IMG/VR virus record: IMGVR_UViG_3300001533_001964
Location: 1 to 27,347 of that record
Reading direction: 5' to 3' (one strand)
DNA: 27,347 nt
Origin: a virus
Shown here piece by piece: positions 1-27,229 of this stretch (position 1 is the first letter of the stretch; each line of letters starts with the position of its first letter). The notes beneath the pieces are model-generated. The model searched no databases. It worked only from the letters and a program-made list of their open reading frames with translations, and was not told the DNA's origin. The translations under genes and the position numbers were made by a program.

Positions 1-121
1 TGTCTGTATATTGGCTTTTTAGCGACGTAAGGAAAGGACCATTAGGCTCGATTTCTTCCCAATCTTCCTCACCAAAAGGATCTACTTTATCTGGTTTATT
101 ATATATATTAAAATAAAAAAT
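1..121 (-). CDS. Partial leader-motif protein, runs off the left edge
   Basis: Reading the minus strand leftwards from just after the fucose synthase stop gives an open frame containing NKPDKVDPFGEEDWEEIEPN, the same DPFGEEDW motif that begins many plus-strand genes between 3276 and 5683. It continues NGPFLTSLKSQ, resembling the NGPF of the 34-residue ORF at 6266. No ATG lies between the upstream in-frame stop (near 127) and the motif; the first codons are ATA and ATT, so the start would be non-standard, or the gene is a decayed or frameshifted copy. The frame is open to the window edge. Function unknown. Confidence 0.5.
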   Translation of the reverse strand, partial: MFYFNIYNKPDKVDPFGEEDWEEIEPNGPFLTSLKSQYTD

Positions 122-2130
122 TATTTAAACAAGGGATGTTTTTCTAATAAATCGTGATAAGTCATTCGTATACCTTCTTCTATATCAATTGAATGTTTCC
201 AACCTAAATTATTTATCTTAGAAACATCTAATAGTTTTCTTGGTGTTCCGTCAGGTTTTTCGATATTCCAAATAATTTCCCCTTCATATCCAACTACATC
301 CTTTACAATTTCTGCGGTTTGTTTGATAGTAACATCTGTTCCTGTTCCTATATTTATATGCTCTGTATAATCTTCATAATTTAACATACAGAAAATCGTA
401 GCTTCAGCCATATCTTTTACATGTAAAAATTCACGCATCGGACTTCCTGTTCCCCAAAGTTCAACACTAGATTTTTCTAACTTCTTGGCTTCATGGAACT
501 TACGTATCATCGCAGGTAAGACATGAGATTTTTCTAAATCATAATTATCACACTGACCTATCCAATTAAACTTATTATTTCTACCAGCATATATTATATG
601 ATTTTTCTCAGTAGTTACACAATACACTTTTTCATTATCTATATTTTCAGACCACATATTTTTATATCCAACAAAAAGTTCATTCCTAACATCACCTCTA
701 TAAAATATCCTCCAACAACCATCATTATTAACATTACCAATTCTTATTCCTAATGTGAAACATAAATGTATAAAATCGTTTTTTAATTCATCAGATTTTG
801 TAGTGTACCTCCTATACCCCCTTGTACCATCACCTTTAATCAAGTTTTCAAAAACAACTTTCCTATATTCCAATGGTAATTCAAATATAAATTTGGGTAT
901 TTTTTTGTTTTTGGAACCAACACCAATTTCATTTCTTATAAATGTTTTAAATGATCTCGATGTGAAATAGAACGCAAAACTATCTTTTCCATAATAAATA
1001 CCCATTCTTTTTAATAAATTATCAATTTCTTCATAATAATCTGGATTTTTTAGTAGGCTTTGTGTTATTCTAATCTGACCACAATCTAATTTTGAATATT
1101 TTGTCTTCATTTTATCTACTATAGAACCTTCTGATACATACCACCCAATAAATTTACATAAATCCATCAAATCATAATCTGTGGGATAATATTTAAATCT
1201 ACTATGTTTACCATCTTTCATAAATCCATCATCCCTGATAATATTATATTCATCTTTAAAGTTTTTAAAATCTATATTTTTTTCTTTCCCTTCATAAATT
1301 GGTTTATGATGAGCTAAGAGTATACCACCTCTTTTTGACATTAACCTTTTTTTAAATATAGATGCATCCCTTTTGATGTAAGGATATTCTGTTCTAGTTT
1401 TAAAATATATCTTATGATCTGGTGTTACTTTAAAGTCACATGTTTTTGTTTTAAAATTCATAAATTCGTTTGTTGTTGTTATTTGATTTGATATAATTTT
1501 TTCAATTTCTACGTTATGATTTTTTGGATTTAATGTGTAAATATCATCTCCTATTTTACAATCTTTAATATTCTTAATACCATCTGGTGTCAATACATCT
1601 GTATCGGATGAAAAACAAGTTGACCCATACAAATTCGTTGGCATGAGTGATATAAACTTTGTTCCATATTGTTCATTGTATTTATTACACATTACGATCC
1701 CTGCTATTTTTGCAATTGCATAAGAAATATTCGTTTCCTCTAAATATCCACCTAACAATTCAGATTCTTTCATCGGTTGATTTGCAAATTTTGGATAGAC
1801 GCAACTCGATGCAAGAAATACTAATTTCTTAACTCCATATTTATATGCATAATGTATAATATTTAATTCTATCATTAAATTATTATAAATAAATTCAGCT
1901 GGATATGTAGAATTGGCAATTATACCACCAACTTTTGCGGCAGATAAAAATATATAATCTGGACGATGTTTCTTAAAAAACTTCTTTGTTTGTTTTTGAT
2001 TCATCAAATCCAATTTTTTATGACTTTTAGTGATTATATTCTTATAGCCTTGTTGTTTTAGTGTCTTTAGAATTTCACTACCCACCAAACCACGATGACC
2101 TGCAACAAAAATTTTACCATTTTTTTTCAT
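121..2130 (-). CDS. fcl: GDP-L-fucose synthase (GDP-4-keto-6-deoxy-mannose epimerase/reductase) interrupted by an intein
   Basis: Extended SDR enzyme that converts GDP-4-keto-6-deoxy-D-mannose to GDP-L-fucose with NADPH, a sugar donor for surface glycans. The N-extein (residues 1-171) has the dinucleotide-binding GxxGxxG (G11, G14, G17), the ASSCVYP strand (107-113) and the catalytic YxxxK (Y137, K141), then PTNLYG. The C-extein (527-669) resumes with [26 protein letters not shown] and NIGTGTD, all typical of Fcl. Residues 172-526 are an intein, so the spliced enzyme would be 314 residues, close to the usual length of about 320. The junction (GST plus C) is about one residue longer than the usual NLYGPxDN loop. 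It sits downstream of the hydrolase gene on the same strand. Family assignment is secure; activity depends on splicing. Confidence 0.93.
553..1617 (-). mobile_element. LAGLIDADG intein within fucose synthase, with C-terminal Gln
   Basis: Protein residues 172-526 (355 aa) have intein blocks in order. Block A begins at C172 ([17 protein letters not shown]). Block B is KVTPDHKIY with the TxxH pattern around 236-239. Two LAGLIDADG-type endonuclease motifs follow: [12 protein letters not shown] (about 325-336) and [10 protein letters not shown] (about 427-436). Block F is [16 protein letters not shown] (501-516). The C-terminus reads NKFNWIGQ followed by C527 as the +1 nucleophile. The last residue is Gln, not the usual Asn, and the penultimate residue is Gly, not His. 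Gln-ending inteins are known but rare. The element splits the extein beside the substrate-binding loop after PTNLYG, a conserved-site insertion typical of inteins. Confidence 0.92.
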
Positions 2131-2940: not shown

Positions 2941-3276
2941 ATGGGTGAATTATTCTTTGATAAAGCTGGCGGTTCTTTTAGTAAAATGTTTCCTATTACT
3001 ACATTAAACAATCTTTATGTTTATTATTTATGTGATAATTGTGGTGCTCTTTATCGTGTTTTCAATCAAACAGAAGCTCGATGTGCTTATTGTGGTCAAA
3101 ACGATCTGAAAATGATATCAGAAGATGCTTATTACAATGAACTTAAAACCCGTTTAGAACCAGATGAATGGGAAGACGCCTTGAAAGAAAGAGAAAAAGA
3201 ATCCCATACAGATGTAGATCTTTATCGATTGGGTATAAATAAAACAATACAAGACATTAAAAGAAATACAAACTAA
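2941..3276 (+). CDS. Small zinc-ribbon protein
   Basis: A 111-residue protein with two CxxC knuckles, CDNCG (C31, C34) and CAYCG (C48, C51), spaced as in a zinc ribbon. A charged, helical C-terminal half follows, rich in E, D and K (RLEPDEWEDALKEREKE). No enzyme motif is visible. The stop overlaps the next start (TAATG at 3274-3278), so the genes are probably translationally coupled. It is the first gene of the plus-strand run that carries the leader-motif family but lacks the leader itself. Zinc binding is a strong inference from the cysteines; the role is unknown. Confidence 0.75.
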   Translation: MGELFFDKAGGSFSKMFPITTLNNLYVYYLCDNCGALYRVFNQTEARCAYCGQNDLKMISEDAYYNELKTRLEPDEWEDALKEREKESHTDVDLYRLGINKTIQDIKRNTN

Positions 3277-3671
3277 TGAAATATTTAAGAAAATTTGAAA
3301 ATATAAAGATTGATCCTTTTGAAGATGAGTTTGAATGGGAAGAATACGATCTGGAAGGAAATAATATTGGAGAAAAAGATTTAGAGGATATACTGAATCT
3401 TATTGATGAAATTGTTGAAAAACATGGATATTCTAAATATGAACCTAAAGATTTTAATATAGGTGATTTTTTAGGTCAAGATGGGATAACATCAAGAACA
3501 ATAACTATTTTTGAAAGTGAAGATAAAAACGCTAAAAGAGTTTTTGCTATAGAAATATTCTTTGATAAAAATAAAAGTACTGGATATTCCATAAGTTATT
3601 ATGATAAAAATATGCACATAATAAAAGGTAGATTGGATATTATAAAAATGTTATTGAAAGAACAATTATGA
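3276..3671 (+). CDS. Leader-motif protein, 131 aa, unknown function
   Basis: Begins MKYLRKFENIKIDPF followed by an acidic stretch (EDEFEWEE), the shared leader of this region, then an unrelated body of about 105 residues. The body looks like a small alpha/beta fold (DILNLIDEIVEKHGYSKYEP, then alternating strands such as RTITIFES and RVFAIEIFF). No catalytic motif recognised. It overlaps the previous stop by one base and the next start by four bases (ATGA at 3668-3671), indicating coupled translation in one transcript. Confidence 0.75.
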   Translation: MKYLRKFENIKIDPFEDEFEWEEYDLEGNNIGEKDLEDILNLIDEIVEKHGYSKYEPKDFNIGDFLGQDGITSRTITIFESEDKNAKRVFAIEIFFDKNKSTGYSISYYDKNMHIIKGRLDIIKMLLKEQL

Positions 3672-4681
3672 AGTACTTAAAATATTTTGAAAATATGGAG
3701 ATTGATCCCTTCGGTGAAGAAGATTGGGATGAAAAGGAATTGTATGGTATGGATTTTTATTTATCTGAAGATCAATATCCTGTATATTCTTCTGGCGAAC
3801 CATTTAAAGCGCCATGGACTGGTAAAAATTGGGTTTTAATAAAAAAGAATAATGTTTATTATATAATAGGTGAAATGAGATTTACAAATTCAGATTTCTT
3901 TATGTTTTACAGTGATTTTAGATCCATAGAAAATAATAATCTAAAAGAATATGATGATGAAATAAAAAGAATATTGAATGATGTAGAAAAGAATCTGGTG
4001 GTTGATGAATTAACAAAAAACTTTAAAATGTATAGAAGATTTGGTAATACCGAGCATTATATAGATATGATCAATAAATTTGTAAATGAAAATATGGATG
4101 TTGATCCCTTTGGTGAAGAAGATTGGAATGAAAATGACATTTATGGAATTAAATGGAAAGATTATTATCTTTTCAAGAAAGATAAAAACCCCAGTGGTAA
4201 ATATGCTACAGTTAATGGGAAAACTATAGCTTTTTATTTTATTCCAGCGATATTTCGACCATTAAAATCTATGGGATTTCCAGGAAATCGGTTGAAAAGA
4301 GGAATTAATGTACAAGTCCTTGAAGATGGAGAATTTCGATATGTTGATAGAACCTTTCGCACAGGAGAATCAGCTCAGAATTATATAGAAAAGTGGTGGG
4401 AAAGCCAAAATAAAGAAGATTATTTTGATTATTTGAACGAAAATATGGATGTTGATCCATTTCAAGAAGAAGATTGGGATGAAAAGGAAAATAAAAAAAT
4501 GCCTTTTCGTTCAATGTATACAATAGGTGAGACTTGTCCATGTGGTCAGGAAGCTTATCATAAAATATCAGAAATCATTTTTGATGACGACCCATTACCA
4601 CATAGACATCCATATACTATGTATGTATGTGACGATTGTTTTCAAAAAATAATGAGACCTCGAGGAATATGGAACATATAA
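3668..4681 (+). CDS. Triple-module leader-motif protein with a C-terminal zinc ribbon
   Basis: A 337-residue protein containing the leader motif three times: at the N-terminus (MKYLKYFENMEIDPFGEEDW), at about 137-155 (KFVNENMDVDPFGEEDWNE) and at about 254-272 (DYLNENMDVDPFQEEDWDE). Each copy precedes a different body: module 1 about 115 residues, module 2 about 100 with GINVQVLEDGEFRYVDR, and module 3 about 65 ending in a CxC...CxxC zinc ribbon (C290, C292, C321, C324). Neighbouring genes carry the same leader once each, so this looks like three such genes fused in frame, or a polyprotein. It overlaps the upstream stop (ATGA) and the downstream nucleotidase start. Function unknown. Confidence 0.78.
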   Translation: MKYLKYFENMEIDPFGEEDWDEKELYGMDFYLSEDQYPVYSSGEPFKAPWTGKNWVLIKKNNVYYIIGEMRFTNSDFFMFYSDFRSIENNNLKEYDDEIKRILNDVEKNLVVDELTKNFKMYRRFGNTEHYIDMINKFVNENMDVDPFGEEDWNENDIYGIKWKDYYLFKKDKNPSGKYATVNGKTIAFYFIPAIFRPLKSMGFPGNRLKRGINVQVLEDGEFRYVDRTFRTGESAQNYIEKWWESQNKEDYFDYLNENMDVDPFQEEDWDEKENKKMPFRSMYTIGETCPCGQEAYHKISEIIFDDDPLPHRHPYTMYVCDDCFQKIMRPRGIWNI

Positions 4682-5193
4682 AAGAATTTTCAATCACGGT
4701 TAATATCGTTTTAGGAGTTGATGTAGATGGTGTGCAGAATGACTTTGTTAATGGGTATTTTGATGTTTATGCTAAAAATTTCCCAGATAAGAAATTTGAT
4801 AGAAATGTAGATGATTGGTTTTTCTACGAAAAAGTTGATTTGGATGGTAAAGATCCTTTAGAATATTTTCTTAAAACAAGAGCTGAAGGATTTGAATATT
4901 CCAATCCTTATGATGGTGCACCCGAAGCTATGAAAAGAATATATAAATGGTGTAAAGATAACAATATTGTATTAAAAATAATAACAAATCAACCAACACA
5001 ACAAGCCAAAGAGAATGTTATTGAATGGTTAAAAAGATACAATATACCATATGATGATTTAATATTTGCAAAGGAAAGATATAAATTTGATAATTGTGAT
5101 ATATTAATAGATGATTCACATTTGGTTATTAATGAAAAACCAAATAATAAAGTATCAATAAAAGTAAATAGGGGATGGAATAAAGGAAGTTAA
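4669..5193 (+). CDS. 5'(3')-deoxyribonucleotidase-like HAD phosphatase
   Basis: A HAD-superfamily phosphatase of the NT5C type, which removes phosphate from deoxyribonucleoside monophosphates; such genes are common in large phages. Motif I is GVDVDGV (nucleophile D18, acid D20), motif II is KIITNQ (T106), and motif III includes a basic residue near K136 and the pair ILIDDS (D148, D149). ATG 4669 is chosen over an upstream TTG at 4636 because the TTG extension lies inside the previous gene. The protein ends at 174 residues in NRGWNKGS. The +1 frame carries on with plausible coding sequence (KSDIDVNELKDLTEDDLFYA) up to the next gene, so the C-terminus may be cut by a frameshift near 5166-5190. 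Confidence 0.82.
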   Translation: MEHIKEFSITVNIVLGVDVDGVQNDFVNGYFDVYAKNFPDKKFDRNVDDWFFYEKVDLDGKDPLEYFLKTRAEGFEYSNPYDGAPEAMKRIYKWCKDNNIVLKIITNQPTQQAKENVIEWLKRYNIPYDDLIFAKERYKFDNCDILIDDSHLVINEKPNNKVSIKVNRGWNKGS

Positions 5194-5281
5194 ATCAGAT
5201 ATTGATGTAAATGAACTAAAAGATTTGACAGAAGATGACTTATTTTACGCTTTGAATTTATATAAGAAAAGGAATAAAATC

Positions 5282-5683
5282 ATGGAACACATAAAAAAAA
5301 TGAAATATCTAAAATACTTTGAAAATATAGATATTGACCCATTTGGTGAAGAGGATTGGAATGAAAAAGAATTTCATTTCCCTTTCAGAAATCCATCCAT
5401 AAATGGAGATATATTATTAGTGGATTATGGGAGTCCTGAATACACCTTATCATCACCATTTCTTATAGAAGAATATGATGAAAAAAATTATCGAGTTATG
5501 TTATATAATAGATTTGTGTGGAATCTATTTGGTTCTCCTGGTTTTTATCCTATTGATGAATCAACATATAAAGTTATTAGAGAAGATCATCTGCAGATAA
5601 ATATATTCGAAAATGGTAGATGGGAAAAGATATCATATTCTAGACTTCCTGAAGATATTAAAAAAAAAATTGTGTTAAAATGA
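5282..5683 (+). CDS. Leader-motif protein, 133 aa, unknown function
   Basis: Starts MEHIKKMKYLKYFENIDIDPF then GEEDWNE, nearly identical to the leader of the gene at 3668. ATG 5282 is preceded by AAAAGGAATAAAATC, a usable ribosome site; the inner ATG at 5300, the exact leader start, is an alternative. The body (about 105 residues) has strand-rich segments such as GDILLVDYGSPEYTL and NYRVMLYNRFVW. The frame is open upstream to about 5166, where it reads as a possible continuation of the nucleotidase. The stop overlaps the next start (ATGA at 5680-5683). Function unknown. Confidence 0.75.
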   Translation: MEHIKKMKYLKYFENIDIDPFGEEDWNEKEFHFPFRNPSINGDILLVDYGSPEYTLSSPFLIEEYDEKNYRVMLYNRFVWNLFGSPGFYPIDESTYKVIREDHLQINIFENGRWEKISYSRLPEDIKKKIVLK

Positions 5684-6249
5684 AATATCTAAAAACATAC
5701 GAAGCAATAGATTGGAACGAAGAATGGGAAGATGAACCAGAATATTCAGAATCAACACATTTGGATACATATTCCGATGCAGAATTGGCAGATCACGGGT
5801 GGACAAGAGACGATGTAAATTATTTTAGAGATGAAATATTAGAATTAAATAAATGTTGGAAAAATACACATAGAGATATGAGAGTAGAATTTTTAAATAA
5901 ATGGTCTGGTATATCAAGAAAAGAAGCTTATGAAATAGATCCAGATGATGGAGATATAGGTGGATATCCATTAGAATTATTAGATGAAAATTTAATAGAT
6001 CACATAAGAAAATATTGTAAAAGTGTGGAAAAGAATAAATTTAACGCGGAAAAAGAAGCTAAAGAAATATACAATCGTTTTTGGGATGAATCGGATTGTA
6101 ATTATGATGAAGAGCCTGAAGATCTGATAGATAAGAGTGAATATATATTAGATCATATGAGAGATATATATGCTGATAATTATACGGATGATCAGTGGGA
6201 TGAAATTGAAGATATATTAAAAATTGATTATCTGATAAATTTAGATTAA
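5680..6249 (+). CDS. Acidic leader-motif protein, 189 aa, unknown function
   Basis: Begins MKYLKTYEAIDWNEEWEDEP, a diverged form of the shared leader that keeps MKYLK, an aromatic-Glu pair and an acidic Trp-containing stretch. The rest is highly acidic and mostly helical, rich in D, E and Y (SECDN-type runs such as DESDCNYDEEPEDLIDKSEY), with no recognised domain, membrane segment or cysteine cluster. It overlaps the previous gene by four bases. Charge and leader suggest the same class as its neighbours; a specific role cannot be assigned. Confidence 0.75.
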   Translation: MKYLKTYEAIDWNEEWEDEPEYSESTHLDTYSDAELADHGWTRDDVNYFRDEILELNKCWKNTHRDMRVEFLNKWSGISRKEAYEIDPDDGDIGGYPLELLDENLIDHIRKYCKSVEKNKFNAEKEAKEIYNRFWDESDCNYDEEPEDLIDKSEYILDHMRDIYADNYTDDQWDEIEDILKIDYLINLD

Positions 6250-6265
6250 AAAAAACTAAAATTCT

Positions 6266-6370
6266 ATGAAGTACTTAAAACGATACGAAGCAATAGATTT
6301 TGATCAGGATTTTGACTTAGATCCAAACCTGAACGCAAATGGTCCTTTTCGATTAATAAAAGATTGGTAG
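6266..6370 (+). CDS. 34-aa leader-only small ORF
   Basis: Encodes MKYLKRYEAIDFDQDFDLDP followed by NLNANGPFRLIKDW and a TAG stop. The first ten residues match the leader of the preceding gene (MKYLKTYEAID), and NGPF recurs in the fragment at the left edge of the window. There is essentially no body after the leader. It lies in the same run, 16 bases after the previous stop and 2 bases before the next ATG. It is either a genuine mini-protein or the stump of a truncated family member. Confidence 0.55.
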   Translation: MKYLKRYEAIDFDQDFDLDPNLNANGPFRLIKDW

Positions 6371-6372
6371 AT

Positions 6373-7242
6373 ATGAAGTACTTAAAATATTTTGAAAATA
6401 AAATAAATCTAAACGATTACATAACAAACGATGATATCGAAATTACAGACATCGAATTGGTAAATAAAATATCATTATTTATTTTGAATATTTTCAAAAG
6501 AAAAAAATGGAAAGGGATTGTGATAATTCCCCAACAGACAAAAATATTATCATTCATTAAAAAAGGAGATGAGATTAAAATATATTTCAAAAAAAACATT
6601 TATAGATCTTATTTTTCTTATTACAAAAAACCCAATGAAAAATACACTTATATACTAGCCTTCAATAAACTAGATATTAGTACAATTCACCATGAAGTAA
6701 AACATCTTATAAATTTCGATAATGATATAAATGCAGACTCACACATAGATACATTTACCATAACCGATACTACAAAATACAAAAATGATAGAGATATTAA
6801 AGAATTTATATTTTTAATGACTATTTGCTTATCGAGTGAAATGTCTTCGATTATAAATGAAATAACTTACGAATTAAAATATAAAATAAAACCAAAGAAA
6901 ATTGGAGATTTATCAAAAAATGAATTTTATAAATGGTATGATTACATAATTTATGATGATATGTATGGAGATAATATCATTACAAAATTAAAAAAATCCA
7001 AATCCTTCAGAAGAATATTTTTTTCAAAATTATTATATTCATTAGATAATATCGATGATATTAAAACAAAAAATAATATTTTTAGAAAAGTTCTAGGGAT
7101 GTCACCCACCATAGACTATGATAAAAAAATATCACAAAAAGATGCTGATGAATTATCAAAAAAATGGATTGATTATCTAAAAAGAAGAGCCATATTGGCT
7201 ACAAATATCATTAAAAAATTTTTTTATGAAAAAAAATTTTAA
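6373..7242 (+). CDS. Leader-motif protein with an HExxH putative metallopeptidase motif
   Basis: A 289-residue, very Lys/Ile-rich protein starting MKYLKYFENKINLNDY. ATG 6373 is preferred to the upstream in-frame TTG at 6364 because it begins exactly at the leader. The motif STIHHEVKHLINF contains H107-E108-x-x-H111, the zinc-binding signature of zincin peptidases, within a predicted helix; a later D/H-rich stretch (NDINADSHID, about 117-126) could supply a further ligand. The C-terminal half is helical with no recognised domain. HExxH can occur by chance, so peptidase activity is only a proposal. It closes the leader-motif run; the next genes lie on the other strand. Confidence 0.7.
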   Translation: MKYLKYFENKINLNDYITNDDIEITDIELVNKISLFILNIFKRKKWKGIVIIPQQTKILSFIKKGDEIKIYFKKNIYRSYFSYYKKPNEKYTYILAFNKLDISTIHHEVKHLINFDNDINADSHIDTFTITDTTKYKNDRDIKEFIFLMTICLSSEMSSIINEITYELKYKIKPKKIGDLSKNEFYKWYDYIIYDDMYGDNIITKLKKSKSFRRIFFSKLLYSLDNIDDIKTKNNIFRKVLGMSPTIDYDKKISQKDADELSKKWIDYLKRRAILATNIIKKFFYEKKF

Positions 7243-8268: not shown

Positions 8269-9147
8269 ATGAATGGTCTAAGAAGTATGTTCCCTAATAT
8301 TCCGATTCTAAATAAGATAATGTTAGCTAATTTAATATGTTTTGCTGGTATTAATATTTTATTTGCGATTTTTGGTCATTTTGATGGTGGAGCAGAATTA
8401 TTGAGTGATATATTCTTTCTAAAAGAAAATGTGTTGATGGTTCTTATCACCCCGTGGACACTAATTACATATAGTTTTATGCATCTTGATTTTTGGCATT
8501 TCTTAGGAAATATGATTTTTCTATATTTCACATCAATAATGTTTGTTCAAATATTTGGTGAGAAAAAACTTCTACCTTTTTATCTTACAGCCGCTGTTTT
8601 TGGTGGTATTTTAGCAATTGGTATTATGAATCTTATACCAAGTTTACCTTATGCACTTGGAGCATCTATTGTTATTTTTGCACTGCTTGTTGCTATAGGA
8701 ATAATGGCACCAAATATGAAAGTTAATCTTTACTTCTTTATTCCAATAAAATTAAAATGGCTTGTTATATTTCTTATTGTAATGCAATTACTTGTTTTAG
8801 GTGATTCTCAGTTTGGTCATCTTTCAGGTGTATTATTTGGTCTAATATTCGCTCTATATTGGAAACGTGGAGTAAATCTTACAGCTCTTGCTGAAAAAGT
8901 AATTTATAAAGGAAGAACTTATGATACTGATACAACCAGCAGCTTTGATTCAGAAATTAAATCAAAATATTCATTTGATGCACCAAATTGTCCTAGTTGC
9001 ACAACAACTAAGACAACAAAAATAAAAAATAAAAAAGTAGAAAGACCTTTGAATGTTGATGAAATTTTAGATAAAATAAATGAAAAAGGAATAAAATCAT
9101 TAACAAAGCGTGAAATGGAATTTCTAGTTACCAGTAAAAAAAAGTAA
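8269..9147 (+). CDS. Rhomboid family intramembrane serine protease
   Basis: A 292-residue polytopic membrane protein with about six hydrophobic helices up to residue 200. Rhomboids cleave transmembrane helices of other proteins inside the bilayer. The Ser-His dyad is visible: GASI with S133, and H184 in QFGHLSGVLFG. The conserved H77/N81 pair (WHFLGNM) and the WxxxTYSFMH approach to it are also present. The cytosolic tail has a CPSC pair (C241, C244) and ends LNVDEILDKINEKGIKSL..REMEFL, like Bacteroidota rhomboids, suggesting acquisition from a host of that phylum. It has no leader motif and faces the SSB gene across a shared terminator. Rhomboids are rare in phages; the substrate is unknown. 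Confidence 0.88.
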   Translation: MNGLRSMFPNIPILNKIMLANLICFAGINILFAIFGHFDGGAELLSDIFFLKENVLMVLITPWTLITYSFMHLDFWHFLGNMIFLYFTSIMFVQIFGEKKLLPFYLTAAVFGGILAIGIMNLIPSLPYALGASIVIFALLVAIGIMAPNMKVNLYFFIPIKLKWLVIFLIVMQLLVLGDSQFGHLSGVLFGLIFALYWKRGVNLTALAEKVIYKGRTYDTDTTSSFDSEIKSKYSFDAPNCPSCTTTKTTKIKNKKVERPLNVDEILDKINEKGIKSLTKREMEFLVTSKKK

Positions 9148-11039: not shown

Positions 11040-13094
11040 ATGCCAAATCCAGTTGTAGATATTGATCCAGTAAGTACATCGAGAGTTGATGTTGATTTAA
11101 ATAAAGATAGAAAAGAAAATTATCGTTCAAGTGCAAATGCTGTAGAATTAATGCCGCAAATACAAGAGCAAAATGGTAAAATAAAATTAACAACGAAAGT
11201 AAATTCAAATCTAGTGATTGGTGATATTGTTTATTTGAGTGCTTTATCTGGAAGTTCGAGTGGGTATACAGATTTTTCGTATATTTTAGATAATGTTATC
11301 GAAGTAAGTGGATGTACTGATTGGTGGTACCACCCATATGCAAAAGGTTATAAAGTAATTGATTTACAAAATAAAAAAAATGAGATTGTTATAAATAGAG
11401 ATTTTGATGAAAAATTAAGAGATAAATCCATTTACAATCATTATTTAACAAAAATAACAGTTGAAGAACAATATTTTAAAAAAGGTATGATAGATTGTGT
11501 AGTGTTCAAAAATGTAACACTAAATGAACAAATATCCGCCACAACAATAACAAATGATATAGATATTCATCAAGCGATTATATTAAGTGGTGTTACAAAA
11601 TGTATCGAATTCAAAGATAAATATGATCAATTTTACAAAACTATTAACACAAAAGAAAAGGATGTTACTTCAAATATATTTACAACCGCGACAACAAGAA
11701 CAAGAGTTGCTCGAACATCTACAAGTACAAATATTATATCAAATGCCCTACCAGATACAGATATTTATTCTTATTATTATACAAACAATAATGATAAGTA
11801 TAGTTATACTATCGTCAAAAATCAATTTATATCTGGATCAACAATTGATAATGGATATTTTTCTGACTGTATCATAGTATATTGTGAAATAAATTATGGA
11901 TCTTTTGTGGATTGTGATTTGTCGTATAGTACAATCAATAATGGTTATTTCAGTGGTTCTACCATAAATTCAACTTGCACATGGTTATATGGAATATGGG
12001 ATGATGGTAATTTTCTTTTACCTTCATTTAATGATGGAATATGGAATAGTGGAAATTTCATAAATAAAACATGGATATATGGTATATTTAATAATGGAAC
12101 ATTTTCAGGTTCAACCTGGCTAGATGGTCTTTTTAATGGAGGATATATGGTAAATTCGAATTGGACAGGTGGAACATTTAATAATGGAGAAATTGTGGAT
12201 ATTGTGTGGTCGGGTGGAACATTTAATAATGGAACATTTTTAAGTTCGATATGGTACGATGGGATATTTAATAATGGTATTTTTTCATCTTCTGTTTGGT
12301 ATAATGGATATTTTAAGAATGGTACAATAAAAGAAAATTCAACTTGGTGGAATGGGTACTTATTTGGAGGAAATTTTTTAAATTCAATATGGCATGATGG
12401 GACTTGGATAAACGGTACAATGAGAAATAGTATATGGTACGATGGGACATTTAATAATGGTTACATGATAGATTCAGAATGGTTGGACGGAACATTTAAT
12501 AATGGAACATTTGATGCTCGTCAAACAGGGTTAACTTACACGACCACACTGGGTGTAAATTGGTCAAATGGAACATTTAATGGAGGAAATTTTAATAATG
12601 CTGTTTGGCAAAATGGTACATTTAATAATGGGGTGGTTAATAATTCCATTTTCTTAGGAGTAAATTGGATAAATGGAGTATTTAATGGATTGTATATGGG
12701 ACCAATAGCTATAGGTGGATATGGATCAGATTATATTATTAATTGGTCAGGAGGAACATGGAATTGGGGGACATTTGGTTTACCTAGAGAATATTGGGAT
12801 CTGAGTTTTCCAAATCCACCAGGTGCCCACATGATAATGAACTGGTTAGATGGTCAATTCTATGATGGGAATTTCTGGAATTCAGGTGTAACGACAGGTC
12901 CAAGTAGAACATTTTGGGGAGGATGGTCTGGTGGAACTTTCTATAATGGTAATTTTTACGGTGATTTCTTCGGTGGAGACTGGGTACAGGGTAATTTTTC
13001 ATCAGATTATGCTTATTGGTGGAAAAGTGGTAGTGCACCACAAGATAGATATAAAAATATAAAATATTTACCATATACTCCACCAGCATTTTAA
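11040..13094 (+). CDS. Large WxxGxFxxG-repeat protein, putative virion fibre or adhesin
   Basis: A 684-residue protein. Residues 1 to about 255 are a non-repetitive N-terminal part with a Thr/Ser/Arg-rich linker (TTATTRTRVARTSTST). From about 262 to 655 the chain is a long run of roughly 18-residue repeats on the theme W-x-x-G-T-F-N-N-G-x-F-x-x-S (for example SIWYDGIFNNGIFSSS). Such regular Gly/Asn/aromatic repeats are expected to form an elongated beta-solenoid. No signal peptide. A repeat of this kind next to a LysM protein suits a virion fibre, but no named tail-fibre domain was seen. A TATATAAA box lies about 25 bases upstream of the start. The repeats are nearly identical in DNA too, so copy number may vary by recombination. 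Confidence 0.75.
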   Translation: MPNPVVDIDPVSTSRVDVDLNKDRKENYRSSANAVELMPQIQEQNGKIKLTTKVNSNLVIGDIVYLSALSGSSSGYTDFSYILDNVIEVSGCTDWWYHPYAKGYKVIDLQNKKNEIVINRDFDEKLRDKSIYNHYLTKITVEEQYFKKGMIDCVVFKNVTLNEQISATTITNDIDIHQAIILSGVTKCIEFKDKYDQFYKTINTKEKDVTSNIFTTATTRTRVARTSTSTNIISNALPDTDIYSYYYTNNNDKYSYTIVKNQFISGSTIDNGYFSDCIIVYCEINYGSFVDCDLSYSTINNGYFSGSTINSTCTWLYGIWDDGNFLLPSFNDGIWNSGNFINKTWIYGIFNNGTFSGSTWLDGLFNGGYMVNSNWTGGTFNNGEIVDIVWSGGTFNNGTFLSSIWYDGIFNNGIFSSSVWYNGYFKNGTIKENSTWWNGYLFGGNFLNSIWHDGTWINGTMRNSIWYDGTFNNGYMIDSEWLDGTFNNGTFDARQTGLTYTTTLGVNWSNGTFNGGNFNNAVWQNGTFNNGVVNNSIFLGVNWINGVFNGLYMGPIAIGGYGSDYIINWSGGTWNWGTFGLPREYWDLSFPNPPGAHMIMNWLDGQFYDGNFWNSGVTTGPSRTFWGGWSGGTFYNGNFYGDFFGGDWVQGNFSSDYAYWWKSGSAPQDRYKNIKYLPYTPPAF

Positions 13095-14907: not shown

Positions 14908-15702
14908 ATGTTAAAAAGATTTGTAGATATAAAAGAAAACAAAGAAATTATAGATGCTTATAATAAGGTAAAAGAAACAAATCAAGAAGCTTTCACCATT
15001 TACGATGATGATGGAAATATCATAGATAAAAAAGTAGAGTATAAGGAAGAAAAAATGATTGCAAAAATAGAAGGAATAAACGAATTGAATGGTATAAGAA
15101 TAGGTGATATCGTTGTTTTTGAAAACAACGGACAAAATCTAACTGGTGAAATTTATAACATAAGAGAAGATAATTCAAAATATTTGGTTAGAGGAAATTT
15201 CACAGGTAAAATAAAACAAGATATGTATATAAAATTTGATCAAATTACAGAACATTACCCTAAAAATGCTAAATTCAATAAACAAACAGAAATTGAAAGA
15301 TCAAATTTAGAAACGTATCCAAGAGGGTGGAAAGAAGTTGATGGAATTATGATGGATAAAGATATTAATAAAAAAATAAAAGAATCCAAAAATTCAGTAG
15401 TTGTAACATTTCCACCTGAAATGAAACAAAAAGAAATTGATAAATTATTACCAAATTTTGAATTCGCAAAATATTTTATAGTAGAAAAAAATAATGAATT
15501 ACATATCGTAAGAATAAAAGAAGGTGTTGATATAAAACCTTTTGTAGAAAGTCTTTTAGAACATCTAATTAAGAAGAAAATGATTAAAGAAGATATATCA
15601 AATATGAAATTAGTTGGAAATAAATCTTTTTCAATTATAAAGAACCCACCAAAGAAATTAAATGAATTAATGAAAAATCTTTTAAAAGATTTATTAAAAT
15701 AA
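14908..15702 (+). CDS. Hypothetical protein, 264 aa, with an SH3-like segment
   Basis: Starts MLKRFVDIKENKEI, a basic-aromatic N-terminus that distantly recalls the shared leader. Residues about 60-115 (GIRIGDIVVFENNGQNL, then GEIYNIREDNSKYLVRG) have the spacing of a small SH3/Tudor-like barrel. The rest is a Lys-rich alpha/beta region including VVVTFPPEMKQKEIDKLLP and ends in amphipathic helices (LNELMKNLLKDLLK). No catalytic motif. It is followed, 12 bases on, by a leader-motif gene in the same transcript. Function unknown. Confidence 0.7.
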   Translation: MLKRFVDIKENKEIIDAYNKVKETNQEAFTIYDDDGNIIDKKVEYKEEKMIAKIEGINELNGIRIGDIVVFENNGQNLTGEIYNIREDNSKYLVRGNFTGKIKQDMYIKFDQITEHYPKNAKFNKQTEIERSNLETYPRGWKEVDGIMMDKDINKKIKESKNSVVVTFPPEMKQKEIDKLLPNFEFAKYFIVEKNNELHIVRIKEGVDIKPFVESLLEHLIKKKMIKEDISNMKLVGNKSFSIIKNPPKKLNELMKNLLKDLLK

Positions 15703-15714
15703 AATCTTAAATTC

Positions 15715-16101
15715 ATGAAATATCTAAAACTATTTGAAGATCAGACAAAAGAACCAGATCCTTTTTCACAAGAAGAAGAATGGGAAGAAGTCGATGAAGA
15801 AAAGGCAAAAATAATTGCTGAAATTATGGAAATCGAAATGAACGATCCATTATCTGGTAAATATGGACTAGATGAAAAAGGACAAAAAATTGTTGATATA
15901 ATGAAAAAGAAATTACCAGAAAAATTAGATAATATAGATATTGAAGATTTGAAAGTTATGAAGCATCTATCAGAAATGCAAATTGAAATGAGAAAATATA
16001 TGGCAGAACATGATAATATTATTCGAGTAACTCAGAAATTATTACAAGATATAATGGTAGAAATATTTTCTGATGAAGATTTATTGAATGATTTTAATTA
16101 A
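15715..16101 (+). CDS. Leader-motif protein, 128 aa, helical
   Basis: Starts MKYLKLFEDQTKEPDPFSQE followed by EEWEEVDEEK, a clear copy of the shared leader located about 8.5 kb from the main cluster. The body is strongly helical and Lys/Glu-rich (AEIMEIEMNDPL, HLSEMQIEMRKYMAEHDN) with no recognised domain. It ends the transcript, since a strong terminator lies 20 bases downstream. That the leader is found on a body unlike the others supports the view that it is a tag, not part of one fold. Confidence 0.75.
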   Translation: MKYLKLFEDQTKEPDPFSQEEEWEEVDEEKAKIIAEIMEIEMNDPLSGKYGLDEKGQKIVDIMKKKLPEKLDNIDIEDLKVMKHLSEMQIEMRKYMAEHDNIIRVTQKLLQDIMVEIFSDEDLLNDFN

Positions 16102-18428: not shown

Positions 18429-18665
18429 ATGATGAGATACACTACATATTTTTCAGATATTCTTTGTTTACCAAGTGGCAGAGTTTTAACTGTTAGTACA
18501 AGAGCTACTGAAGAATTAAGAAAAAACGATTTGATAAAATGGAAAAGAAATATAGAAATGAGTGATGAAAAAATAAACATTCATGGATATGTTTGCAAAG
18601 ACAAAGATATAGAAAAAATAGAAGAAATTGATAAAAGAATAGTACCTTTTAATGAGAGAAGATAA
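18429..18665 (+). CDS. PSG-motif family protein 1, 78 aa
   Basis: The first of four tandem genes sharing a short N-terminal motif: here CLPSGRVLTVSTRATEELRK, with PSG at residues 15-17, followed by NDLIKW. The rest is charged and lacks a known fold. A second ATG directly follows the first. It overlaps the next gene by 14 bases. The motif (hydrophobic, P-S-G, polar, two hydrophobic residues, then an E-containing helix and an LI-x-aromatic end) looks like a small beta-hairpin plus helix. Function unknown. Confidence 0.7.
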   Translation: MMRYTTYFSDILCLPSGRVLTVSTRATEELRKNDLIKWKRNIEMSDEKINIHGYVCKDKDIEKIEEIDKRIVPFNERR

Positions 18666-19005
18666 GGATTATATCGTAGGTGTTCCAAGTGGAGAAATAA
18701 TACACTGTAGAAATAGTGATATTTACGATCTTGTTCTTTCCGGTTTGGTGAAATATAGAGAATATTATGGAAATGAACAAGTATCTTCTTATTTCTTTCG
18801 TGATATATTATTGGATGATATTATAAAAATCATACATGATAATATTAAGTATGGTGATTATATAGAACATAAAATTTTTGGAAAAGGTAGAATAAGTGGA
18901 TTTAGTGATAAAAAAGGTTTTTATGTATACTTCAGTAATAAAGGAATTAATCTTGAAGTAGATTTGGATTCTTTTTTATTACAAAAACATATTAAATTGT
19001 TATAA
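18652..19005 (+). CDS. PSG-motif family protein 2, 117 aa, with a UvrD/PcrA-Tudor-like segment
   Basis: Begins with the family motif (VGVPSGEIIHCRNSDIYDLV, PSG at 12-14, then SGLVKYREY). Residues about 64-100 read KYGDYIEHKIFGKGRISGF followed by YVYFSNKGI, the spacing of the Tudor-like barrel at the C-terminus of UvrD/PcrA helicases (GDxVxHxxFGxGxV), a module known to contact RNA polymerase. The match is by eye and could be a generic SH3-like fold. Start and stop overlap both neighbours (14 bases upstream, one base downstream). Confidence 0.72.
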   Translation: MREDKDYIVGVPSGEIIHCRNSDIYDLVLSGLVKYREYYGNEQVSSYFFRDILLDDIIKIIHDNIKYGDYIEHKIFGKGRISGFSDKKGFYVYFSNKGINLEVDLDSFLLQKHIKLL

Positions 19006-19415
19006 TGTATTACGTAGAAGATGATGTTTTGGTAGGATTACCTAGCGGACAGGTTATAACTGTAAATCGTCACGAAGCACATGTTCTATTAAATTTAGGA
19101 TTAATTGATTGGAATCCCGAATTAAATGAATTTACTTTTGATGATAGAGTATATAAAAAAATTATTGAATTTTTATATGAGATAAGAGAAGGAGATTTTG
19201 TCAAAATAAAATCAAGAAGCGGTCGTTATCAAAAAGCAAAAGTAATAGAAATAGTCGGTAGTTATGATGGTAGTGATATTATGGGTAGAAATTTTAATAG
19301 AGTATTTGATATTGGAACTACTGTATATGTAGTTAAATTTACAAATGGTCAGATTGGTATGTACGAAAAGGATCAAATAAAAAAAATAAGAGATGTCAAC
19401 GATGAAATTATTTGA
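19005..19415 (+). CDS. PSG-motif family protein 3, 136 aa, SH3-like C-terminal part
   Basis: The motif is VGLPSGQVITVNRHEAHVLL (PSG at 13-15) followed by LGLIDWNPE. The C-terminal half (IREGDFVKIKSRSGRYQKAK, VIEIVGSYDG, then TVYVVKFTNGQIGMYEKDQI) has an SH3/KOW-like alternation of strands and resembles the second half of the previous protein more loosely. It overlaps the upstream stop by one base and the downstream gene by up to 23 bases. No enzyme motif. Confidence 0.72.
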   Translation: MYYVEDDVLVGLPSGQVITVNRHEAHVLLNLGLIDWNPELNEFTFDDRVYKKIIEFLYEIREGDFVKIKSRSGRYQKAKVIEIVGSYDGSDIMGRNFNRVFDIGTTVYVVKFTNGQIGMYEKDQIKKIRDVNDEII

Positions 19416-19644
19416 GGATTTTTTTTCGGATGAAAAATCAAAAGAAATTTACGGAATGCCGAGTGGTCAAATGATCGAGGTCAGTGAATCTGAATTCAAT
19501 TTTCTTAAAAAGATAAAACTTATTAAATTTGTTGCTTTTTCCGAAAAAGATCTTATGATAGATGATATTATCCCAATATATGAATGGTTCTTTTATGATA
19601 AAGACTATGATAAAATAATCAATTTACTTATGAATTCACTTTAA
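19393..19644 (+). CDS. PSG-motif family protein 4, 83 aa
   Basis: Combines the two families of this genome: MKLFEDFFSDEK at the N-terminus resembles the MKYLKLFED leader, followed by IYGMPSGQMIEVSESEFNFL (PSG at 23-25) and IKLIKFV. The in-frame ATG at 19402 starts precisely at MKLFED and may be the real start. The gene overlaps the upstream one and its stop overlaps the end of the convergent minus-strand gene by 9 bases. Function unknown. Confidence 0.7.
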   Translation: MSTMKLFEDFFSDEKSKEIYGMPSGQMIEVSESEFNFLKKIKLIKFVAFSEKDLMIDDIIPIYEWFFYDKDYDKIINLLMNSL

Positions 19645-20306: not shown

Positions 20307-21074
20307 ATGAAAAAATTATATTTGTATAACTGGAATGAAACTAAAAACTTAGAGCCTTCTTCGTCACCAAGGCGAAAGATAAATGTAAATGATTTAGAAT
20401 GGGATTGGGAAGAAGATGAACCACTATCAGACCATGAAAAATTAAGAAATGAATTTGCATGGACAACAGCAGAAGGTAGTTTTATATATCTTAAAAACCT
20501 AAAAACTAACCATATAAGACATATAATAAATTATGTAAAAAGAAATAAGGATAGATACAAGGATAAATTTGATGTAATTATAAGTGCTATGGAAAGCGAA
20601 TTAAAATACAGAAAAGGAAACAAAAAAATGGAAAATCATTCTATCAGGGAAAGTTTAGGGAATGATAAATCAAAATTAAAAGATTTTGTAAAAAGAGAAT
20701 TATGGGATGAAGCTGATAAAGAGTTCGATAGAATATCAAATAAATATTGGAATGAATCGAAAACTATGGGTGAGTATGACAGAAAGATGGACGAATTAAA
20801 AACAATATATCCAGACAGATATAAACCAAAAATAAGTATTGATTCTAGTCCATCTTTATACAATAAACCTAAACAACCAATTAAACCACAAGAAGAAAAA
20901 ATGATTGATATATTATTAAAACCAAGTGGAGAAATTATAGAAGTTTCTGAAGAAGAATTTGAAGAATTAAATGAATTTTTTGAATTTGAATATATCAAAG
21001 AATATGATTGTTATTGGATAGAGGATGATTTAAGAGATGGTATAATATCAATTTTATACTATTTCAAAAAATAA
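20307..21074 (+). CDS. PSG-motif family protein 5, 255 aa, with an N-terminal acidic leader
   Basis: Starts MKKLYLYNWNETKNLEP and reaches an acidic Trp stretch, NDLEWDWEEDEPL (28-40), similar in layout to the leader-motif proteins. A helical middle (about 44-170) follows. The last 55 residues are a PSG module: ILLKPSGEIIEVSEEEFEEL (PSG at 206-208), then DCYWIEDDLRDGIISILYYF. So the family motif is here a C-terminal domain on a longer protein, showing that it is a movable module. A TATATATAA stretch lies just upstream. Function unknown. Confidence 0.72.
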   Translation: MKKLYLYNWNETKNLEPSSSPRRKINVNDLEWDWEEDEPLSDHEKLRNEFAWTTAEGSFIYLKNLKTNHIRHIINYVKRNKDRYKDKFDVIISAMESELKYRKGNKKMENHSIRESLGNDKSKLKDFVKRELWDEADKEFDRISNKYWNESKTMGEYDRKMDELKTIYPDRYKPKISIDSSPSLYNKPKQPIKPQEEKMIDILLKPSGEIIEVSEEEFEELNEFFEFEYIKEYDCYWIEDDLRDGIISILYYFKK

Positions 21075-24299: not shown

Positions 24300-26458
24300 A
24301 TGAGTAAAATTATAGGGATTGGCTTTGGTCCCCTCAAATGGTAACATTTGTGTAAAATTGTCTAAACTGCTGGAACCCCCTTAAGATTTATATACTACAA
24401 AAGAATCTGAAAAGATAAATTTGAATGTTTGAAAAATATAAATATTGGGCAATCAGCATCCAAGGCTCTAAGTCAATTAATTGATATGAGCAAGGTTCAG
24501 AGACTATAATGACACATCCAAATGGATGAAGGTATAGTCCAGACTACAAAGAAGTTTATTAACTTCTGCTTATGAAAGTAAGTGTGGTAAGTGATTTAGG
24601 AACTACAAATTCGTGCGTTGCGGTTATGGAAGGCAGCTCACCTGTTGTTATTACAAATTCAGAAGGTAAGCGTACAACCCCATCTGTGATTGGATTTTCA
24701 GATGATGGTATAAAAACAGGAGATTCGGCAAAACGTCAAGCTGTTGTAAATAGTGAAAAAACCGTTTATTCCATAAAGAGATTTATGGGTGAAAAATATG
24801 ATGATCTTATTAACGAAGTAAAAAACGTATCGTATAATGTTAAGAAATCATCTAATGGGATGCCAAGTGTTGATATAGATGGTAAAAAATATACACCACA
24901 AGAAATATCAGCAATGGTACTTCAAAAAATGAAAAAAACTGCTGAAGATTATTTAGGACAAAAAGTTGATAGAGCAGTTATAACTGTACCCGCATATTTT
25001 GATGATTCACAACGTCAATCAACGAAAGAAGCTGGTGAAATCGCTGGTTTGAAAGTTGAAAGAATTATTAACGAACCAACCGCGGCAGCTCTTGCTTATG
25101 GATTGGATAAAAAGGATGGGGATATGAAAGTTGTAGTATTTGACTTAGGTGGTGGAACTTTTGATATATCTATACTTGAATTAGGTGATGGTGTATTTGA
25201 AGTGAAATCAACAAATGGTGACACTCATCTCGGTGGAGATGATTTTGACAAAGTTATTGTTGATTGGTTGGCTGAAGAATTTATGAAAGACTATGCAAAA
25301 GTTGATTTAAGAAAAGATAAACAAGCACATCAAAGAATGAGAGAAGCTGCTGAAAAAGCAAAAGTCGAACTTTCATCTTCAAGTGAAACTGAAATAAATC
25401 TACCATATATTATACCTATTGATAATGTACCACAACATTTGGTTAAAAAGCTCACAAGATCCCAATTCGAAAAATTAAGCGATAAATTAATTGAAAAAGT
25501 AAAATCACCATGTGTAAAGGCTCTAAAAGACTCAGGATTGTCAAAAAATGATATTGACGAAGTTATTCTAGTTGGTGGATCAACAAGAATGCCGATTGTT
25601 CAAAAAATCGCAAAAGATATTTTTGGAAAAGAACCATCAAAAAATGTTAATCCAGATGAAGCAGTTGCAATTGGAGCTGCAATTCAAGGTGGTGTTTTAA
25701 CAGGTGATGTAACTGATGTTCTTTTATTGGATGTTACTCCTTTATCATTAGGTATAGAAACACTGGGTGGTGTTATGACAAGACTAATTGATGCAAATAC
25801 TACAATTCCAGTTACAAAATTAGAAATATTTTCCACAGCCAGTGATAATCAACCTGGAGTAGAAATTCATGTTCTACAAGGTGAAAGATCAATGGCAAAA
25901 GATAATAAAACATTAGGTAGATTTCATTTAGATGGATTACCACCAGCCCCAAGAGGAATACCTCAGATTGAAGTAAAATTTGATATTGATGCAAATGGTA
26001 TACTTCATGTATCCGCAACTGATAAAGCAACTGGTAAAAATCAACGAATACGAATTGAAGGATCTTCTTCACTCACAGAAACAGAAATCGAAAAAATGAA
26101 ACAAGAAGCGAAAGAAAATGCTGAAAAGGATAAAAAAGAAAGAGAAAAAATTGATAAACTAAATCAAGCAGATGCTCTTGTCTTTAATACTGAAAAGCAA
26201 ATAAAGGATTTTGGTGATAAACTTCAAGAAAGTGATAAAAATGAATTATCAGAAATTGTTGAAAAATTAAAAGAAGCTCATAAAAATAAAGAAATGAGTG
26301 AAATTGATCAGCTATCTTCTAAACTAAATGAAACATGGACACGTATTAGTACAAATCTATATCAACAATCACAAAATGAAAATGTGAATATGGATGAAAA
26401 TTCAGATGGAATAAACGCGGAGGATGTTGAATTTGAAGAAGTAAATGATAAGAAATAA
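24300..26458 (+). CDS. dnaK: DnaK (Hsp70) chaperone, split by a group I intron
   Basis: ATP-dependent chaperone. Exon 1 is 24300-24319 and exon 2 is 24592-26458; joined, they read MSKIIGI then [14 protein letters not shown], the canonical DnaK start, giving 628 residues (E. coli 638). The ATPase domain has the phosphate loop DLGTTNS (8-14), a second phosphate motif [10 protein letters not shown] and the adenosine motif LVGGSTRMP. The interdomain linker is [19 protein letters not shown], followed by the substrate-binding domain ([17 protein letters not shown]) and a helical lid ending [11 protein letters not shown], like Bacteroidota DnaK. No dnaJ or grpE is in the window, so it probably uses host co-chaperones. 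Full-length dnaK in a phage is uncommon. Confidence 0.95.
24320..24591 (+). mobile_element. Group I self-splicing intron in dnaK, 272 nt, no ORF
   Basis: P1 pairs the exon end GGGAU (24315-24319) with GUCCC (24328-24332), leaving the required U-G wobble at the 5' splice site. The last intron base is G (24591). P2 is CAAATG/CATTTG with a GTAA tetraloop (24335-24350). P6 is GCTC/GAGC (24465-24468 with 24488-24491). The R segment GGTTCAGAGACTATA leads to P7, a perfect GACTATA/TATAGTC pairing (24502-24508 with 24533-24539). P8 is CATCC/GGATG (24515-24528). P9 is GAAGTT/AACTTC (24551-24566). Splicing restores ATT GAT (Ile-Asp) in frame. P3, P4 and P5 were not fully drawn, and the subgroup is not assigned. 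Confidence 0.92.
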
Positions 26459-26496: not shown

Positions 26497-27096
26497 TCAT
26501 TCAGTTTTGTATGCATTATCTCCATCTCGATCAAAATGCCCCTTTTTTGTTGCTGTAACAGTTGCTGCCCGGTCTTCATCACCATACACAGCAACATGTT
26601 TTTCACCATTTTCATCTTCTGTAACAACAACATGTTTGTTATAACCAGTTATTTTATATTCTACATAATAGGAACCGATTTTTCCCATTTTATATGTAAA
26701 TACAGCACCAAAACCCAATGGTATTGTTAATAATAATGCCAAAACAATCCCCTTAAAACCATATTTATCTATTATCTTAAATAAATATTTTAAAGATAAT
26801 AAAACCAATGCCAATACTATTAAAAACACTACAATTATAAGAAGAGATGATATTACTCCTTCTTTTTTAGGATATATTCTGCTTAATATATCGTTTACGT
26901 TTTTTATTCCCTTATTATATAAATTTTTAACCTTTTCAATTACATTTAATTTTCTTTCGGTTTTTTCTATTTTATCAATATCTATATCTGTTTTTACAAA
27001 TTCTTTAAGTTGTTTAAATAAATAATTAGGAAGATTACTGACGGTTTTATTAACCTTATTAATAAATGATTCATCATTTATAAGTATTGTAGACAC
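26497..27096 (-). CDS. Two-helix membrane protein, 199 aa
   Basis: An N-terminal charged, helical cytosolic part (about 1-78) is followed by two membrane helices (VISSLLIIVVFLIVLALVLL, about 81-100, and GIVLALLLTIPLGFGAVFTY, about 115-134). A strand-rich C-terminal part follows (YVEYKITGYNKHVVVTEDEN, KHVAVYGDEDRAATVTATKK). The start is GTG, directly after an in-frame stop. In another frame, just upstream, an ATG ORF (27155-27078) reads MILRFDNFMNESNTYDNISE, so the true N-terminus may be joined to it by a frameshift near 27096. No family recognised. Confidence 0.65.
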   Translation of the reverse strand: MSTILINDESFINKVNKTVSNLPNYLFKQLKEFVKTDIDIDKIEKTERKLNVIEKVKNLYNKGIKNVNDILSRIYPKKEGVISSLLIIVVFLIVLALVLLSLKYLFKIIDKYGFKGIVLALLLTIPLGFGAVFTYKMGKIGSYYVEYKITGYNKHVVVTEDENGEKHVAVYGDEDRAATVTATKKGHFDRDGDNAYKTE

Positions 27097-27155
27097 TCAG
27101 ATATGTTATCATAAGTATTACTTTCATTCATGAAATTATCAAATCTTAGTATCAT
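27078..27155 (-). CDS. 25-aa ORF, possible displaced N-terminus of the membrane protein
   Basis: MILRFDNFMNESNTYDNISE then CLQYL and a stop. The basic-aromatic start (ILRFDNFMNES) resembles both this genome's MKYLKYFEN leader and T4-type capsid-targeting peptides. It overlaps the GTG start of the membrane-protein gene in a different frame. It may be a short independent peptide, or the lost N-terminus after an indel. Confidence 0.35.
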   Translation of the reverse strand: MILRFDNFMNESNTYDNISECLQYL

Positions 27156-27229
27156 TTCTTTTAGTTTTTTTTTTGTATATATAAAAAAAACATTTTTCAA
27201 AAAAAATTATATAATAAAATAAAAATATC

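Follow-up and report, generated by a model that had tools for sequence, protein, structure and literature searches.

A short N-terminal leader on huge-phage proteins resembles the capsid-targeting sequence of phage T4

The internal proteins IPI-IPIII of phage T4 carry an N-terminal capsid-targeting sequence (CTS), described by Mullaney and Black (1996) as cited in PMC9026906. Mutations in the CTS assign targeting to residues 4 and 7 and processing to residues 8 and 10, and the E10D change leaves targeting without processing (PMC9026906). N-terminal propeptides are also removed from head proteins of phages related to phiKZ; the vRNAP of 201phi2-1, for instance, is cut at TFE-275 (PMC5694885). 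Polyvalent and MuF-fused injected effectors contain host-directed enzyme domains for which packaging in heads is predicted (PMC9503650). Here we analyze a 27,347-base virus fragment, IMG/VR record IMGVR_UViG_3300001533_001964 (the window), in which seven gene starts encode a leader of the type MKYLKx(F/Y)E. Comparison with its relatives suggests that this leader is probably a CTS of the T4 type, which would dock on the prohead core and be cut after its glutamate by a gp21-family protease, the body then being ejected with the DNA. Throughout, ↓ marks the end of a leader or a candidate cut.

Like the T4 CTS, the leader takes up about ten N-terminal residues, precedes unrelated bodies, has hydrophobic and aromatic residues at positions 4 and 7 and ends in glutamate followed by a small residue. 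As in T4, it is found in phages with a gp21 protease and a gp23 capsid, and one of its forms, MLKYQEFINE↓A, differs little from the T4 sequence. Unlike T4, which has few tagged genes, these phages have from tens to more than 100 per genome, with three leader variants that include a short MKYLKxFE↓ lacking I/L at position P3; the tag is also found on an RNA ligase and a tRNA synthetase, and the T4 signal was studied experimentally whereas this one is known from sequence. The head and inner-body propeptides of phiKZ and SPN3US are likewise N-terminal and are removed after glutamate by an S77 protease, and their head proteins are ejected. They are, however, mostly longer than 100 residues, share no common short sequence and end at S/A-x-E sites, whereas the leaders described here have 8-13 residues and [ILVF]xE or xFE sites. 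The carrier of the polyvalent and MuF effectors is a fused structural domain rather than a leader of this length, and no MuF or portal domain was among the families listed for tagged proteins (one list covering 25 of 32 families). Capsid targeting was not linked to the Mahaphage clade, to which the relatives below point, in a limited literature search, in which reviews of jumbo phages did not use the term.

The leader in the window and in its relatives

All seven MKYLK-x-(F/Y)-E gene starts that a sequence-only reading of the window had proposed were found as described (Table 1), each with L at position 4 and F or Y at position 7. The motif opens six of the 39 genes called in the window, compared to a mean of 0.14 when N-terminal columns were shuffled and to none with shuffling within genes; the probability of a chance origin is thus close to zero. 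The acidic stretch that was said to follow the leader can be clearly recognized behind four of these starts (3276, 3668, 5300 and 15715), is loose in two (5680 and 6266) and is lacking at 6373. Among the weaker leaders proposed, the one at 27155 on the minus strand proved to be a full T4-type form, though in an open reading frame (ORF) of 25 amino acids, while those at 14908, 19402 and 20307 stay weak. This 25-aa ORF, with MILRFDNFMNE↓SNT (27078-27200, minus strand), overlaps the start of a 199-aa membrane-protein ORF in another frame, and possibly represents a frameshift or a decayed gene. The leader fragments reported at 1-121 reduce to a DPFGEEDW on the minus strand, with no in-frame ATG or MKYLK leader upstream.

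No annotated phage matched the window in a DNA search at near identity, and domain searches on its tagged bodies gave nothing convincing; an adjacent untagged gene encodes an NT5C nucleotidase. In the tagged protein of 289 aa (6373-7242) the body contains HEVKH (6691-6705), resembling the HExxH of zinc metallopeptidases, and has no Pfam match. The gp32-type single-strand DNA-binding protein of the window is closest to those of huge phages of 634-735 kb: LR756501 (W01; 53%, 735 kb), LR745206 (W02), LR756504 (W03) and LR756502 (W04), followed at a greater distance by LR756500 (W05; 462 kb). Genomes of the same sizes (634, 636, 642 and 735 kb) are the largest reported in the Mahaphage clade, whose predicted hosts are Bacteroidetes (PMC7162821). 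W01-W04 were compared as complete genomes and W05 in part.

A search of related phages, which had been suggested as a check, found the leader class genome-wide in these huge phages. A strict DNA pattern for MK(Y/H/N..)(L/I..)Kx(F/Y)E matched 18 times in W02, 18 in W03, 19 in W04 and 23 in a 61-kb contig (G003), while the reversed pattern used as a control gave no matches and phage G (497 kb) and phiKZ gave none with the pattern itself. We then counted leader genes from gene calls with three leader variants, taking the expectation from internal windows. The observed numbers were 95 in W02 (9.2 expected), 54 in W03 (10.2), 119 in W04 (9.0), 29 of 134 genes in G003 (2.3) and 59 in W01 (10.2), the last rising to 79 once the variant MIKKFKLFE was included. 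The complete huge phages thus have 54-120 leader-bearing genes per genome where about 10 are expected. Since some variants were found in the same genomes, more weight rests on the excess than on any one of these counts. Some matches to the T4-type regular expression, about 8-10 per genome, are due to chance (the DegT-like aminotransferase at 213251 of W03 is an example), and we therefore do not claim single payloads of low evidence such as primase and polymerase.

Nearly every codon position of the leader varies, with codon choice near the average of each genome, indicating that selection acts on the peptide and not on the DNA. A nucleic-acid signal, namely a conserved element at gene 5' ends that serves translation initiation or recombination, would account for the exact position of the motif at starts, for the frequent ATGA overlaps and for a mild codon skew at a few positions (for example GAA at 0.93 instead of 0.74). 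Such an element would not account for residue classes (L/I, K/R, F/Y) that are kept while the bases change, nor for a peptide that persists behind an in-frame upstream extension (MEHIKK-MKYLK at 5282). We rejected a DNA-level explanation on the codon data and consider it very improbable.

The leader is also separable from the body that it precedes. In one pair of bodies that are 85% identical the leaders are exchanged, MIIKKYIKFINE↓EFDHL in W02 standing against MKYLRTYE↓GFDHL in W04, with the terminal glutamates of the two leaders aligned. Orthologs that lack a leader begin 0-3 residues past the glutamate of their partner (MVKKYFEFINE↓NFELILESD compared to MDLILESD). These swapped and missing leaders place the border with the body close to the final E. 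This E is followed by A, S, G or N in 55% of T4-type, 77% of FNE-type and 59% of FE-type leaders, compared to 21% after any E. The tagged bodies include phage lysozyme, M15 peptidase, SET and AAA domains, 2'-5' RNA ligase/Acb1-like proteins, T4-type RNA ligase, a SMODS-associated NUDIX, methyltransferases and glutamyl-tRNA synthetase. In the last of these a leader-like N-terminal extension is seen in W03 (263096, T4-type) and in two contigs, G009 (11631) and G010 (87825), and in neither W02 nor W04.

Unrelated folds of this kind rule out that the leader is part of one conserved domain, and its description as a tag apart from the body is upheld. That the bodies differ completely holds within the window; among the relatives some form a paralogous family. 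The leader might then be a functionless mark of one multiplied gene family whose bodies diverged while the N-terminus stayed recognizable. A body family with 71 members in W02 and W04, bearing leader variants, and the tandem arrangement of tagged genes (33 adjacent pairs compared to 7-11 after shuffling), with adjacency above the shuffled level in W01, W02, W04 and G003, are what shared ancestry would predict. This family, however, takes in only 23 of the 211 short-form genes, and neither the variety of enzyme folds nor the swapped and leaderless orthologs fit descent from a single gene; we regard ancestry as the sole cause as quite improbable.

Likeness to the T4 signal, head genes and candidate cleavage sites

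The MKYLK form is absent from W01, in which about 50 proteins start instead with MIKKYKQFINE↓G, MLKYQEFINE↓A, MKTFNQFINE↓G and similar sequences. The leader grades into this T4 form ([F/Y]xxFINE↓A), and the regular expression for the class also retrieves ipII and ipIII of T4 itself (MKTYQEFIAE↓A). Bridge forms that join both halves, MKYIKEYEDFINE↓A and MKYLKIFENWINE↓A, occur in W05 and other contigs. A third variant, MKHLKTYKIFE↓S, is found in W02 and W04 within one paralogous body family whose leaders end in FE↓S, YNE↓S or YKIFE↓S. The positions that matter for targeting in T4 are hydrophobic or aromatic: L/I4 and F/Y7 in MKYLKxF, and aromatics at i and i+3 in the T4-type forms. T4-type leaders, the YKIFE↓ variant and two internal sites of the window ORF 3668-4681 fit an [I/L]xE↓A/S/G/N end, while the short form has E↓N/S with a variable P3.

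Each of the relatives W01-W05 has an S77-family protease in a long ORF that adjoins a gp23-type capsid gene, though the S77 score lies under the Pfam cut-off in four of the five. In W01-W04 the remainder of the protease ORF contains numerous repeats such as YSEYIAE↓NLDKN, a protease-scaffold fusion. The major capsid proteins (MCPs) of the relatives have a common N-terminal segment, like the T4 propeptide, with an invariant E-N (E43-N44) in H-x-(I/M/L)-x-E↓N. A single MCP gave no match against solved structures; a profile of five MCP sequences retrieved T4 gp23. In T4 the mature chain of the solved structure has 65 residues fewer than the precursor, which puts the cut at FLTE65↓A66.

The sequence-only reading had reported no prohead-protease site in the window. 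This was wrong, as the 337-aa ORF 3668-4681 contains the candidates FVNE↓N and YLNE↓N in addition to the E↓ that closes each leader. Both have the same form as the scaffold repeats EYIAE↓N and the MCP junction INE↓N of the relatives, and they sit just before the second and third DPF..EEDW copies, respectively, the internal copies reading NENMDVDPF(G/Q)EEDW. Because the two sites match the cleavage-site form and precede these copies, ORF 3668-4681 is likely a polyprotein of three units, which would be packaged and resolved into three proteins by two further cuts.

A cultured relative, Sphingomonas phage PAU, which has a gp23-type capsid, offers a comparison. Seventeen of its genes start with MKT(L/I)xxLYE↓A or similar (1.5 expected), and 12-13 of these, depending on the block limits, lie in or beside a head block of about 20 kb with portal, protease, scaffold and capsid. 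They include the scaffold gene and both genes labeled 'internal capsid protein' by the depositors, a label whose basis is not stated. Protease, scaffold and tagged genes are adjacent in PAU. Its leader consensus is MKTLxxLYE↓A, often with a second site LNE↓A, as in the internal capsid proteins gp142 and gp154 (MKSLTNLYE↓NKLNE↓A and MKTISKLYE↓AKLNE↓A). The mature PAU capsid protein comprises 520 of 585 residues by N-terminal sequencing (PMC5646251), and its N-terminus fits, within one residue, the site LME64↓N65 visible in the sequence.

Taken together, the earlier comparison of the tag to the T4 CTS is well supported by the bridge forms, the leader swaps, the gp21/gp23-type heads, the matching sites and the PAU internal capsid proteins. 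During head assembly the first 7-8 leader residues, hydrophobic at position 4 and aromatic at position 7 as in T4, would dock the tagged protein on the prohead core. A gp21-family protease would cut after the final glutamate (E↓N/S/A/G), and the mature body would stay in the head and be ejected along with the DNA.

The same leader could in principle act during infection and stay uncleaved, directing proteins not to the prohead but to a membrane site, a replication compartment or a hub that the phage encodes. Tagged enzymes able to act in the cytoplasm (glutamyl-tRNA synthetase, methyltransferases, RNA ligase) would suit such a role, as would the lack of a perfect T4 site in the short form and the location of much of the tagged array outside the head-gene blocks of the huge phages. 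The continuity with the T4 CTS, the cleavage-like preference at P1', the gp21/gp23 heads of the leader-bearing complete phages and the association with head genes in PAU argue against it. Membrane proteins are also depleted among the tagged ones: membrane-helix windows were found in 0/120 tagged proteins of W04, 0/54 of W03, 2/79 of W01 and 3/100 of W02, where 8-12% is usual. This depletion and the charged leaders also differ from a Sec/Tat-type hydrophobic core. We consider another destination unlikely.

Somewhat less remote, though still doubtful, is that the leader targets the prohead and that only the [ILVM]xE↓ forms are processed, mature short-form proteins keeping MKYLKxFE. P3 is variable in MKYLKxFE↓, the T4 E10D mutant provides a precedent (PMC9026906), and about half of the leader ORFs in IMG/VR have an [ILVM]xE within residues 9-40, at which a downstream cut would be possible. 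On the other hand, 59-77% of short-form leaders have A, S, G or N directly behind their E, and orthologs align this E to that of a processed-type form.

Several observations weigh against the interpretation of the leader as a CTS. It is built on uncultured phages, and the window itself contains no gene for a protease or a capsid protein. At P3, where T4-type sites have I/L, the short form (x-F-E↓N) does not, so that cleavage exactly at its E is uncertain. The regular-expression classes were partly tuned on the genomes in which they were counted, with genes from a simple caller, and shared descent accounts for part of the count, since some tagged bodies are paralogs. The strict DNA pattern was not found in PAU, PTm1, Lak-B1 or MA9V-2, and in PTm1, a cultured relative of the gp23 type, leaders are not clearly enriched; the leader system is therefore not universal.

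An acidic octapeptide as a second tag

The acidic stretch had been taken for the continuation of the leader. Instead, the octapeptide DP(F/Y)GEE(D/N)W is a second, independent and position-independent tag. DP(F/Y/W)xE(E/D)xW occurs in W01 in 100 copies in 85 proteins (about 8% of its proteins). Of these copies, 18 lie close to the N-terminus, 44 are internal and 38 stand at most five residues from the C-terminus, often after KRVFSDL or similar. Its frequent internal or C-terminal position, and its absence from three leader-bearing huge phages, led us to reject leader and acidic stretch as one tag. The 100 copies have 80 different DNA spellings; a DNA search gave 103 matches in W01, none with the reversed control and none in phage G or phiKZ. 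A stretch of 100 kb in contig G010 contains 38 copies, no copy was found in W02-W04, the part of W05, T4 or PAU, and in IMG/VR only a limited number of contigs carry the octapeptide. Leucine-rich-repeat-like proteins that start with MKYIKEYNEYVDPFxEEDW or MKYIKEYEDFINE form tandem arrays in another contig (G006, IMGVR_UViG_3300035698_010599), in W05 and in the window at 1-121 (minus strand).

The octapeptide co-occurs with the leader in W01 (odds ratio 8, p = 2e-12). Seven of the 38 C-terminally tagged W01 proteins have a membrane-helix window, and since it is also found on such proteins the octapeptide itself probably does not signal packaging. Our best guess is a docking motif; we know of no matching system. 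When it follows a leader it would be kept on the mature protein as a second signal. Tentatively, and with somewhat more doubt than confidence, the two tags may form a two-part address code in a clade of the largest known phages, in which the CTS would load up to about 100 different proteins into the head and the octapeptide would dock its bearers, membrane proteins among them, on a single dedicated partner.

Features of the window and possible roles of the tagged proteins

The positions of the leaders, acidic tags and candidate sites are collected in Table 1.

Table 1. Leaders, acidic tags and candidate protease sites in the window
Feature	Coordinates	Strand
Acidic tag DPFGEEDW without upstream leader, window-edge fragment	59..82	-
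Leader MKYLRKFE↓, 131-aa ORF 3276-3671	3276..3299	+
Acidic stretch DPFEDEFEW, 131-aa ORF 3276-3671	3312-3338	+
Leader MKYLKYFE↓, tripartite 337-aa ORF 3668-4681	3668..3691	+
Acidic tag DPFGEEDW, N-terminal copy directly after the leader, 337-aa ORF	3704..3727	+
Internal candidate prohead-protease site FVNE↓ (then NMDV), 337-aa ORF	4079..4090	+
Acidic tag DPFGEEDW, second (internal) copy, 337-aa ORF	4103..4126	+
Internal candidate prohead-protease site YLNE↓ (then NMDV), 337-aa ORF	4430..4441	+
Acidic tag DPFQEEDW, third copy, 337-aa ORF	4454..4477	+
Leader MKYLKYFE↓, ORF ending 5683; in-frame MEHIKK start upstream at 5282	5300..5323	+
Acidic tag DPFGEEDW, ORF ending 5683	5336..5359	+
Leader MKYLKTYE↓, 189-aa ORF 5680-6249; ATGA overlap with preceding stop	5680..5703	+
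Leader MKYLKRYE↓, 34-aa ORF 6266-6370	6266..6289	+
Leader MKYLKYFE↓, 289-aa ORF 6373-7242	6373..6396	+
Leader MKYLKLFE↓, 128-aa ORF 15715-16101	15715..15738	+
Acidic stretch DPFSQEEEW, 128-aa ORF 15715-16101	15757-15783	+
T4-type leader MILRFDNFMNE↓S, short ORF	27123..27155	-

Elsewhere in the window, a nucleotide-sugar epimerase resembling GDP-fucose synthase (121-2130, minus strand) is split by an intein-like Hint insertion, and a rhomboid protease gene lies at 8269-9147. A protein of 684 aa (11040-13094), rich in pentapeptide-like repeats of the form (S/D)GxFNNGxF, is followed by a LysM protein, and a DnaK-like (Hsp70) chaperone is encoded at 24572-26458. The neighboring genes at 18429-19644 and 20307-21071 have a common (G/L)xPSG(Q/R/E)xIxV motif and are apparently tandem paralogs; the gene at 19393 also starts with a weak leader.

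The tagged proteins had been proposed to be packaged and co-injected for host takeover. Such a role is plausible for the Acb1-like, T4-type RNA ligase and SMODS-associated NUDIX payloads; others are lysozyme- or peptidase-like or unassigned. If the leader is a CTS, a sequence signature would pick out packaged and ejected proteins among the hundreds of uncharacterized proteins of huge phages and so provide a testable list, and the short form would illustrate the extent to which a CTS can diverge from that of T4. As several payloads resemble anti-defense or repair enzymes, these phages may then bring a large ready-made counter-defense kit into the cell.

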